Of a DNA stretch of 26,113 nucleotides, positions 1-18,892 are shown piece after piece. Source of the DNA: an uncultured Erysipelotrichaceae bacterium (GTDB lineage Bacteria; Bacillota_I; Bacilli_A; Acholeplasmatales; Anaeroplasmataceae). The stretch spans positions 1 to 26,113 of the forward strand of contig CACZRY010000127.1 in the NCBI GenBank assembly GCA_902783745.1. Reading direction: 5' to 3'. A program made the translations under genes and the position numbers. Each line of letters begins with the position of its first letter. The first letter of the stretch is position 1. Under the pieces are notes generated by a model. That model ran no database searches, was not told the DNA's origin, and worked only from the letters and a program-made list of their open reading frames with translations.

Positions 1-1
1 A

Positions 2-586
2 TATACATTTTTTAACAAGATTATAGATGATGAAAGTTTTGTGAAATATTTAGCTGTTCTTATAAAGTCCGATTTGTTGATGGGTTCGTTTGAAGATGAT
101 TTGAGAATTTTATCTAATAAAATACAAGCACAATACAATTATAAATTTGTGTTTAAATATTTGGATTTTACCGATTCTGATGTTATTTCAAAATATGGTT
201 TAAAGAACACTACCGATATTTACGCAAAGAAATTTGATAATAAAGATATTTTTATTGTGTTCAATAAAAAATTAAATTCTAATTTGAATAGATATTTATT
301 TTTAAAGGTTTGGGCTTATGATATATTGGATGCTTGGAAGAAAGATGATGAACTTCGTTTAGCTTTAAAAATCAATGCATCTGATGATGATATTTTAGCC
401 GAAAGAATAGCAATTGAAATGACTTTAACAAGATGGCAACTAAAATTATATGATGATGGCACAGAAGATCCAGCATTAAAAAGAGCTTTAACTTTCTGTG
501 AACCAGAAATATTAGAAATTAGAAGAAAAAATTATAAAGATAAGGGAGTTATTAGGAATTGGACTCTATTAAGTGTGAGAAAATAA
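2..586 (+). CDS. Hypothetical protein, 5'-truncated by the window edge
   Basis: The reading frame is open to the left edge. It adds 13 residues before a GTG at 41 that has only a weak upstream ribosome site, so the true start probably lies outside the window. About 194 residues are visible, with no signal peptide or membrane helix. I do not recognise the family. One weak resemblance: residues encoded around 250-450 run IFIVFNKKLN, then a helix at KVWAYDIL, then AERIAIEMTLTR. This is the spacing seen in ImmA/IrrE-like proteins, where a HExxH helix precedes an ANRFA-type helix. The HExxH zinc motif itself is absent, so if related it would be a non-catalytic version. The gene ends in TAA and is followed by two small ORFs and a structured RNA on the same strand. 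Confidence 0.6.
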   Translation, partial: YTFFNKIIDDESFVKYLAVLIKSDLLMGSFEDDLRILSNKIQAQYNYKFVFKYLDFTDSDVISKYGLKNTTDIYAKKFDNKDIFIVFNKKLNSNLNRYLFLKVWAYDILDAWKKDDELRLALKINASDDDILAERIAIEMTLTRWQLKLYDDGTEDPALKRALTFCEPEILEIRRKNYKDKGVIRNWTLLSVRK

Positions 587-660
587 GGGCATTAATACAA
601 TATGGTGAAAGAAACTATCCATGCACTGTTGTTGATTTTCTAGTGAAGGAGTTGATGTAA
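559..660 (+). CDS. Possible 33-codon small ORF bridging two genes
   Basis: A frame opens after a TAG at 553-555 and runs from a TTG at 559 to a TAA at 658-660. It overlaps the last codons of the upstream gene and ends 2 bases before the next ATG. An AAGGGAG tract at 542-548 sits about 10 bases upstream of the TTG, a usable ribosome site. The peptide begins MDSIKCEKIRALIQYGE and ends FLVKELM. It is not recognised. The stop lies next to the AAGGAG that serves the next gene, so it could act as a leader or translational-coupling peptide. It could also be chance, or the leftover of a frameshifted longer gene. There is no coding-bias evidence either way. Confidence 0.22.
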   Translation: MDSIKCEKIRALIQYGERNYPCTVVDFLVKELM

Positions 661-662
661 TT

Positions 663-857
663 ATGTCAATTACAGAAGAAGAAAAAATTAGAAGAAGAAA
701 ATCATTTGAAAAAAATGATAATATTATAGGCGCAGGATTTGGGGAAGAAATTGATCCTAGAATTAAAAATATTCCCGAAGCAGAAAAATATATAAATGGT
801 GAAATTGAATTTGAAGAATATCAAGAAGCATTAATGAAATTTATAAAGAATTTATAA
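663..857 (+). CDS. Small VbhA/Fic-antitoxin-like protein (orphan)
   Basis: A 64-residue acidic and lysine-rich protein starting at ATG 663, with AAGGAG at about 646-651. The layout matches VbhA-type inhibitors of Fic toxins: an N-terminal EEEKIRRRKS helix, a central loop NDNIIGAGFGEEIDP, and a C-terminal helix with AEKYINGEIEFEEY, close to the common 'Y-x-x-G-E-I/L-x-x-E-E' signature. The inhibitory [S/T]xxxE[G/N] motif that blocks the Fic active site is not clear; the expected place reads SFEKNDNIIG. No Fic toxin (HPFxxGNGR) is found on either side, so this is either an orphan or a different small helical protein. It ends 38 bases before the predicted start of the structured RNA, and the RNA's -35 begins 3 bases after its stop codon. 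Confidence 0.55.
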   Translation: MSITEEEKIRRRKSFEKNDNIIGAGFGEEIDPRIKNIPEAEKYINGEIEFEEYQEALMKFIKNL

Positions 858-889: not shown

Positions 890-942
890 ATATATGTGCC
901 GAAAAGCTATGGCACTTTTAACATAGAGAAATGTTAAATAAT

Positions 943-1086
943 GATTGTCGCTTTCTAGTAGGCGACTGACAAGTAGCTAGAGTTCTAAATGATTGTCGCT
1001 TCCCTATAGGCGTCTGACAAGTAGTAGGGGTTCAAAAATAATTGTCGCTTACCTGTAGGCGACTGATAAGTTGCAGGTCTTAAAAA
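943..1086 (+). repeat. Three tandem imperfect 48-49-nt repeats (pseudoknot units)
   Basis: The units begin at 943, 991 and 1040 (periods 48 and 49). Conserved blocks are ATTGTCGCTT, then TAGGCGACTGACAAGT with one or two changes in copies 2 and 3, then an A/T-rich spacer (TTCTAAA, TTCAAAA, CTTAAAA). Variable blocks are the 5-6 loop bases and their pairing partner, which change together. Copy 2 has one T-T mismatch in stem 1 (GTCGC against GCGTC). Confidence 0.85.
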
Positions 1087-1090
1087 TTCG

Positions 1091-1115
1091 TCCTACCTTT
1101 GGTTAGGATTTTTTT
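1091..1115 (+). terminator. Terminator of the pseudoknot RNA
   Basis: The stem TCCTA/TAGGA (1091-1095/1104-1108), with an inner C-G pair and a small loop, is followed by seven T (1109-1115). It directly follows the third repeat, so it sets the 3' end of the small RNA. Confidence 0.7.
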
Positions 1116-4829: not shown

Positions 4830-5464
4830 TGTTTGATTTTAGTAAATACGATGTTATAGTATTTGATTACGATGGTGTAACTATAGATTCAATGGATTAT
4901 TGGTATCATCTACCATCTAAATTCATAAAATATAAAGGATATAATCCAAAGCCTGATTTAGATGAATCTATATCATATTATTTAACATATGATGTTGCAA
5001 AAAAATTTATAGATGAATATAAAATTGATTCAACTGTAGATGATTTATTAAAAGAAATGGATTATTTTATAGATATTACATATCCAACTAATAAACCAAT
5101 GTATAAAATAATTGATTTATTAAAAAGATTAAAAGATAAAAAGAAAATTGTATTTTCTTCATCACCATCTAAAATAGTTATTAATTCATTAAAGAAAAAT
5201 AATCTATTTGATTATTTTGATACTATCTATACTTCAAATGAATATAATATATCAAAATATCATACTGATGGCTTTGAATTTATAATTGAAAAATTAAAAA
5301 TTTCAAAGAATAAAATATTAGTTTTAGATAATGATATTAGAGTTGTTAAAGCCTCAACTGATGCAGGTATTGATACAATATTAATTTTAGATGAATATAA
5401 TAAAAAAATGAAAGATGAAGTTAAAGATAAAGTATTAGGAATATATAAAATTAGTGATTTATAG
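4829..5464 (+). CDS. HAD-superfamily hydrolase (phosphatase / phosphoglucomutase-like)
   Basis: A 211-residue HAD protein. Motif I is FDYDGVTIDS, with nucleophile D13 and acid/base D15. A helical cap follows (about 20-95). Motif II is FSSSPS, the motif III lysine lies in ISKYHTDGF, and motif IV is VLDNDIRVVKASTDAGI, the subfamily I pattern of PGMB- and Gph-like phosphatases. The substrate cannot be read from sequence. It begins inside the stop codon of the flavodiiron gene and ends at a strong terminator, making it the last gene of a three-gene operon. It may remove a damaged or toxic phosphorylated metabolite, but that is a guess. Confidence 0.85.
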   Translation: MFDFSKYDVIVFDYDGVTIDSMDYWYHLPSKFIKYKGYNPKPDLDESISYYLTYDVAKKFIDEYKIDSTVDDLLKEMDYFIDITYPTNKPMYKIIDLLKRLKDKKKIVFSSSPSKIVINSLKKNNLFDYFDTIYTSNEYNISKYHTDGFEFIIEKLKISKNKILVLDNDIRVVKASTDAGIDTILILDEYNKKMKDEVKDKVLGIYKISDL

Positions 5465-17575: not shown

Positions 17576-18892
17576 ATGAAATTTTTAAAAAGATTAATTA
17601 TAACATTATTTGTAATAGCTTTATTATTGGTTGTTGCAATAATAGTTTTAGGCGTTATAGCTTATGATGGTTCTGGATTATCATATAATCCTAATTCATC
17701 AAATAATATGTATAATTTAATAGGTTCTGAATTTGGTAAATCATTAGACAAGATATATAATTCATCATATGTAGTTGATGATAATAAAATAGAAATTGGT
17801 ATAACTGATGATGCATTAACTCAATATGTTTTTGACAATGTAAGAGACATGGAGGGTAATGAAAAATATTATGATGGTAGTAAAGATCAAAAAACATATA
17901 TTATGGAAAGTAATAATGTTAGATTAAATAGTGTTGAATTTTTTATAAATGAAGATTTAACATTAGCATCAAAAGTTAGAGTACAAGCTATAGGCTTTTA
18001 TCAAACATCAATTCATTTAAACGCAGGTTTAAGTGTTATTTCATATGATGACTTAAAAGATGATGGCAAGGAATATGAAAACCTTGTAGGTGTTGAACAT
18101 ATATTAGCTGTTGAATTTAATGAATTAAAATTAGGAACATCATTAGGTATTACATCTAAAATTGCAAAGAAGCTTTTATCTAATTTCAAATTTAATGTTG
18201 ATTCAAGTGTTAATTTTGATTTTGATAAGTTAGCTTTATATATGAATTTTGATGAAATCATGGAAAAATGTTGCCAAGATGAATTCTTATTATCATTACT
18301 TCAAGAATGTAATTATAGTGTATCAATTGAAAAATATGATAGTGATTTAGAACCTAAATTATATTTAATTGTTGATACAAAGAATTTATTTAGCCAAGAG
18401 GTAAAAAAGGATATTACAATTTCTAATTTAGATGTTATTACAGAAATATCATCTGAATTATCTAGCGGAATGATATCATTATCAGAAGAAGAATTTAATG
18501 CGTTAATTAAGGATAAGGTTTCATCTAATCTTAATGATTTTAATAGAATAATAACTTTAGGTGAGACTAATATTAATTTAACATTAAATGATCCTTATTT
18601 CTCACTTGATACTAATTCCCTAACAGCAAATCTAAAATTTAATAACACTAATTCAGTTGTTAAATTAAATATTGGATTTGAATATATTAATTCATCTAAG
18701 CTTATAAAATTAAGTTTAAATGATTGTTATGCAGGAAATATTAAAACATCAAATTTAACAAAGAATGATAGTAGTGTTATTAATGAATTAGAATTATCTA
18801 CTACTGATTTATTTGGCAATATAATTTCTGAAAAAATTACTAATATAGTAATTGATAAAGATAATAAAGTTTTAAATATTTATTTTAATTAA
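17576..18892 (+). CDS. Membrane-anchored exported protein, hypothetical
   Basis: 438 residues. One N-terminal helix (about 5-30) follows MKFLKR, so the protein is anchored with its bulk outside the cell. There is no lipobox. The exported part has mixed alpha/beta character, with many Asn, Ser, Asp and Lys residues. Amphipathic stretches such as KLYLIVDTKNLF and SKVRVQAIGFYQTSIHLNAG, and segments with alternating hydrophobic residues, suggest beta-rich lipid- or ligand-binding folds. I do not recognise a family. AGAGGTAG before ATG 17576 is the ribosome site. It is co-directional with, and 19 bases upstream of, the aldo/keto reductase. Confidence 0.75.
   Translation: MKFLKRLIITLFVIALLLVVAIIVLGVIAYDGSGLSYNPNSSNNMYNLIGSEFGKSLDKIYNSSYVVDDNKIEIGITDDALTQYVFDNVRDMEGNEKYYDGSKDQKTYIMESNNVRLNSVEFFINEDLTLASKVRVQAIGFYQTSIHLNAGLSVISYDDLKDDGKEYENLVGVEHILAVEFNELKLGTSLGITSKIAKKLLSNFKFNVDSSVNFDFDKLALYMNFDEIMEKCCQDEFLLSLLQECNYSVSIEKYDSDLEPKLYLIVDTKNLFSQEVKKDITISNLDVITEISSELSSGMISLSEEEFNALIKDKVSSNLNDFNRIITLGETNINLTLNDPYFSLDTNSLTANLKFNNTNSVVKLNIGFEYINSSKLIKLSLNDCYAGNIKTSNLTKNDSSVINELELSTTDLFGNIISEKITNIVIDKDNKVLNIYFN

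Follow-up and report, generated by a model that had tools for sequence, protein, structure and literature searches.

A tandem pseudoknot RNA of probable CptI type that stands without a neighboring toxin gene in the Anaeroplasma group

The window analyzed here is a stretch of 26,113 nucleotides (contig CACZRY010000127.1, positions 1 to 26,113) from the assembly GCA_902783745.1 of an uncultured Erysipelotrichaceae bacterium, a genome of 1.44 Mb (G000) that belongs to the genus of Anaeroplasma bactoclasticum. At positions 896-1115 on the forward strand it encodes a small RNA of three tandem pseudoknots, which by its structure and sequence is very probably of the CptI type, the antitoxin RNA of the CptIN family of type III systems. 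Judged by the paired changes among its homologs, this RNA is real and kept by selection. Its unusual feature is its solitary state; CptI without its toxin is the likely identity of the element, which an initial annotation made from the sequence had missed. We favor, with a probability of roughly 0.55, the reading that the array is a free-standing antitoxin that would act in trans against CptN-type nucleases, as a decoy or an anti-addiction RNA.

Results

The initial annotation had described three tandem H-type pseudoknots at 896-1115, and this description holds. The units lie at 947-981 (stem 1, S1, 947-951/962-966; stem 2, S2, 954-958/977-981), at 995-1029 (S1 995-999/1010-1014, with one T-T mismatch; S2 1002-1006/1025-1029) and at 1044-1078 (S1 1044-1048/1059-1063; S2 1051-1055/1074-1078), with a repeat spacing of 48 and 49. 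Each unit reads S1 (GTCGC/GCGAC), a first loop L1 (TT), five variable bases of S2, TAG, the second strand of S1 (S1'), a ten-base loop L3 (TGAYAAGTNG) and the second strand of S2 (S2'). The S2 5-mers TCTAG/CTAGA, CCCTA/TAGGG and ACCTG/CAGGT are paired at 5/5 positions in each unit, and pairs are lost in every other assignment of the 3' to the 5' strands; for the first strand, the chance of a perfect partner is about 9e-4 given the base composition. Both hairpins that had been proposed upstream do fold, one at 896-915 (in the minimum-energy fold; the sequence is alike in G017 and in C71, a second locus of G000) and one at 917-938, whose stem C71 keeps with a shorter loop, by eye.

The RNA has what look like a promoter and a terminator of its own. 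The likely promoter at 861-889 (TTGTAT at 861-866, 17 bases, TAAAAT at 884-889) recurs, by eye, as similar hexamers with an identical 17-base spacer at 5/6 array loci, but its -35 element has only 3/6 consensus bases and a consensus promoter scan does not list it. At 1091-1115, a stem followed by a T run can be seen by eye, as expected of the Rho-independent terminator that follows the repeats in the CptIN family; the stem has one bulge, is better formed in G007 and is not listed by a strict terminator scan.

Homologous arrays were found in 4 of the 27 genomes of the genus, at six loci that carry 2 to 5 units each: three in the window, two in G000:C71, five in G017, two in G007:C22, and two in each of two arrays in G018. 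No further genome among 160 of the order had one under stricter filters. Together these loci provide 16 units (14 of them distinct), in which standard pairs occupy 96.4% of the pair cells and 19 cells have changed on both sides. For the share of standard cells, the double-changed cells or the covariation score, 0/500 shuffles did as well; five pairs with a double change were equaled by 12/500 shuffles, and the number of pair types, by 469/500. When the partners are slid out of register, only 31-56% of the cells pair. S1 is nearly constant and has changed once on both sides (GTCGG/CCGAC), with a T-T mismatch in unit 2 of the window and of C71, while S2 varies. Both stems are thus kept across the 16 units, and the S2 partners change together and not independently, apart from a single S2 mismatch in unit 4 of G017 and a decaying unit 5 in the same array. 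This agrees with the earlier proposal that the pseudoknot is selected. By eye, the linker contains AAAT after 14/16 units.

In covariance searches of the kind that the initial annotation had suggested, no Rfam family matched the window RNA at gathering score, with weak chance matches only, and a model of the Anaeroplasma units led to an array in G379, a genome from another family of the class. The cptN-linked arrays in L077, L088, L089, L128 and L130 likewise have no Rfam match except to tRNA.

The resemblance to type III antitoxins that had been pointed out can be narrowed to CptI. In the primer printed for the Eubacterium rectale system (PMC4627078), the CptI repeat can be parsed as ACCAC TG ACCGA TAT GTGGT ATATAAATGG TCGGG. 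By our own parse, its layout is S1 of 5, L1 of 2, S2 of 4-5, then 3 bases, S1' of 5, L3 of 10 and S2', where the original paper on the structure (PMC4627078) counts L1 as one base. The window RNA has the tandem H-type pseudoknot repeats of CptI design that mark the CptIN family, shares the stem and loop lengths, to close similarity, with the E. rectale RNA as described there (PDB 4RMO, PMC4627078), and has the same A-Y-AA[AG]T in L3 and a terminator after the array. Differences are that no cptN follows the terminator, that L1 TT and L2 TAG are particular to the window subtype, and that its arrays have 2-5 units, whereas 17/18 parsed cptN-linked arrays have two.

With the NCBIfam model NF047359 of CptIN, which the solved CptN matches at 1.1e-33, CptN was found above the cut-off in 13/395 genomes of the class. 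A motif finder placed tandem units 5' of cptN in 18/24 loci (14/14 from genomes, 4/10 viral), and a looser parser, which adds some plainly spurious single units, returned the same 18/24. The viral loci without a tandem were L132, L133 and L137-L140; by eye, L132 has two related repeats, L133, L137 and L140 have repeats of another design, and L139 has none in 410 bases. No tandem was found by the motif finder at 16 loci with CptN matches below the cut-off (L090-L105). AT-rich tandem pairs that the strict motif finder returned at 18643/18685 of the window, at 810/774 of L088 and at 5130/5168 of L130 were taken for chance.

A covariance model made from the Anaeroplasma units alone gave matches at E up to 0.1 in 41/395 class genomes; outside the genus, E fell below 0.001 only in G379. 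Two of 20 weak places inspected have tandem units (G007:C27 and G428:C25), and the rest look like chance. The weak match in G428 (E 0.07, at C25:18357) lies just 5' of a cptN at 18492 and, since the model had been built from the Anaeroplasma units alone, is independent of the loop choice of the motif finder. We also built a joint alignment across solitary, phage and cptN-linked arrays, with 28 units of which 27 are distinct; it excludes duplicates and any unit whose loops differ in length, and with them most of the cptN-linked units. In this alignment, 94.1% of the pairs are standard and 9/10 pairs show double changes, which 0/500 shuffles equaled; pair types alone were matched by 322/500 shuffles, and slid partners pair at 30-48%.

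The initial annotation had set the varying stem in contrast to known type III antitoxins and had read it as a different address for each unit. Neither idea was borne out. Among the 18 cptN-linked arrays with at least two parsed units, nine have an S2 that changes from one unit to the next, with compensation (L078, L079, L080, L085, L086, L087, L131, L134 and L136), and the other nine do not, so that no address is needed; in these arrays, an S2 that varies between units is ordinary. At a ToxIN locus in G379 (L075:1495-2160, minus strand), one stem likewise varies among the three ToxI repeats, and its partner strands match, by eye.

Directly downstream of the repeats, where the CptIN family has cptN, the window has groES (Cpn10), starting at 1304, and the CptN profile found nothing credible in the window or in the other RNA loci scanned. 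Solitary arrays occur elsewhere in bacteria. The array in G379:C107, found with the Anaeroplasma covariance model, has two tandem units (S2 CTCGA/TCGAG) and a terminator, and sits below a MazE-like gene, with DUF3990 and HTH genes further upstream and no type III toxin beside it; the ToxN of this genome, with its own ToxI, is on another contig, and G379, presumably part of the searched set, is not among the CptN matches. A second solitary array in G007 (C27, L119:3047-3130) is of the E. rectale subtype and has a terminator; the contig continues for roughly 340 bases more, without a cptN. Neither this array nor the window RNA had a blastn match in phages or plasmids.

Complete units also occur in viral DNA. 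Scans with exact patterns that left S2 open turned up nine viral contigs (L127, L129 and L141-L147) that have CptI-type units but no cptN in the 2.9-13.2 kb examined of each; none of the nine is among the ten viral CptN loci listed, a list itself limited by the patterns. Six different unit sequences are represented, including two that differ by a single base, and on every one of the nine contigs the S2 strands, which the patterns had left open, pair at 4 or 5/5 positions. Five of the contigs (L127, L129, L142, L146 and L147) have tRNA genes in the stretch examined, and the other four have none there. The same scans returned L128 and L130, in which cptN follows the array. Exact patterns of the subtype of the window gave no hit in viral contigs in two scans, and the full motif was missing from all 12 stretches returned by a shorter GTCGC pattern. 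No CptN turned up by tblastn, with one CptN query, among 50,697 phage records, and the L146 unit had no blastn match in phages.

Three of the viral loci have features of their own. On L129 (2704-2791, minus strand), two CptI-type units of different subtypes stand together in a 5.6-kb stretch with 14 tRNA genes. On the 155-kb contig L147 (8060-8142, minus strand), a ToxI-like unit, which shares all but 2/26 bases with a G291 repeat linked to toxN, comes shortly before a CptI-type unit, possibly a decoy pair against two toxin families. The isolated 141-kb phage Geobacillus virus E3 (KP144388.1, L148:2456-2545) has two tandem, unannotated CptI-type units between E3_06 and E3_07, of which one is PhoH-like and the other hypothetical. 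One of them is identical to unit 3 of the window at 28/35 positions, with one S2 pair exchanged, and the other is less regular; a weak 25-base match to the E3 units was found in Mammaliicoccus phage phi36 (E 0.8).

Two genes precede the array in the window. The first, orfB (1-586, forward strand; listed open reading frame 41-586), is cut by the contig start and was modeled with an ImmA/IrrE-type fold without HExxH, and we rejected it as a toxin on the basis of this model. At the site of the first His of HExxH, its family has a Lys that is invariant in 61/61 aligned rows, by eye. No relatives of orfB were found in viral contigs. The second, orfC (663-857, forward strand; 64 amino acids), is weakly VbhA-like, below the Pfam cut-off. 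Both belong to an A-B-C cassette (L008:7437-10315; window 1-857), in which the pseudo-ImmA/IrrE protein is flanked by small proteins of two kinds, both weakly VbhA-like; the cassette is modular, sits under a recurring AT-rich promoter region and is tandemly duplicated in G018. In G007:C55 (L051:2188-3167), an orfC homolog stands directly 5' of a Fic gene, an order that recalls VbhA-VbhT pairs. Downstream of the array, a 12/12 match to a sigma-70 promoter with a 16-base spacer (1217-1244) precedes groES and overlaps an inverted repeat (1237-1256).

Discussion

Papers on the type III family describe a toxin that processes the precursor RNA and pseudoknots that keep the toxin inactive, with ToxN cleaving at A-rich sites (PMC5086642, PMC8860590); the published ToxN cuts fall between AA and AU, GAA and AU, and AAA and AA. 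By the reading that we favor, the window RNA would be transcribed from its own conserved promoter, and a CptN-like nuclease, arriving from outside on a plasmid, phage or neighboring element or else encoded elsewhere in the genome, would cut the A-rich linkers and thereby release single pseudoknots. These would block the nuclease and so shield the cell or its mobile island from CptIN systems that cause abortive infection or addiction; the solitary units in phages would likewise protect the phage. A precedent is the pseudo-ToxI RNA of phage PhiTE, also a toxin-free, antitoxin-like RNA, which, once expanded, suppresses the type III toxin ToxN of the host according to the text cited (PMC3475682). 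That RNA belongs to the ToxI family, and as reported there the wild type has 1.5 repeats, without a full pseudo-ToxI RNA, and becomes active only after expansion or recombination, whereas the units described here are complete in wild genomes, including those of bacteria. ToxI of ToxIN/AbiQ (PF13958) itself resembles the window RNA in its tandem pseudoknots, its A-rich linkers and, at the G379 locus, in one varying stem, but has other loops, toxN downstream and repeats of 34-36 nucleotides by the figures given in PMC5086642.

Several observations limit this reading. CptN (NF047359) was not found in G000, G007 and G018, the RNA-bearing Anaeroplasma genomes listed in the search, but the completeness of G000 is 81.8%, the genomes shown do not include G017, and a CptN may be divergent and therefore missed by the model. 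ToxN (PF13958) had no match in the 27 Anaeroplasma genomes, and TenpN (NF047358) was not searched. Since the Pfam ToxN model is blind to CptN of E. rectale at E up to 1 (first 88 residues), the model of one family can miss the toxin of another. The loop ranges of the motif finder were chosen after both kinds of array had been viewed, and at 6/10 viral cptN loci the array differs in design or was not found. The phage evidence consists of nine partial viral stretches, scanned with exact patterns, and one complete phage genome. One unit of G017 is decaying. Finally, orfC is the next gene upstream at 6/6 loci of the window subtype, a constant position that hints at a local partner for the array.

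This last point, together with orfB lying upstream (window, G007, and G018 twice), would fit an antitoxin whose partner has gone unrecognized, be it the neighboring orfB and orfC proteins, a CptN that has diverged strongly, or a TenpN encoded elsewhere, which the profile searches described above could have missed; we regard this as unlikely, though not negligibly so. Less probable still is that the array is a relic of a CptIN system that has lost its toxin, an antitoxin lingering without a job. The patchy distribution of the arrays, the decaying unit and the loss of genes around the array would agree with such a remnant, but the compensatory changes in both stems, the promoter kept at five of the six loci, the 2 to 5 units in each array, the two separate subtypes in G007 and the recurrence in phages all speak against it. 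Tandem protein-binding motifs are typical of free-standing sponge RNAs, and the array could in principle serve regulation by titrating a different RNA-binding protein, its likeness to CptI being incidental; we hold this to be very improbable, given loop sequences and lengths close to those of CptI and the intermediates that connect the array to cptN-linked ones.

We tentatively suggest, at slightly less than even odds, that solitary type III antitoxin RNAs form a standing class of anti-toxin decoys in bacterial islands and large phages. Complete pseudoknots, CptI-type or ToxI-like, that stand without a toxin, the phage ones in non-coding and often tRNA-rich regions, could be read in this way with similar reserve, and mixed subtypes or families side by side might, just as tentatively, give protection against several abortive-infection systems of the host. 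According to the account in PMC5086642, type III loci have so far been found by toxin homology and upstream repeats; as such searches start from the toxin, toxin-free antitoxin RNAs escape them, and our literature searches, limited to openly licensed papers, returned no paper on toxin-free CptI. Were solitary CptI RNAs functional decoys, phages and bacterial islands would be using RNA counter-defense against type III toxins in nature, beyond its role as an escape route in the laboratory.
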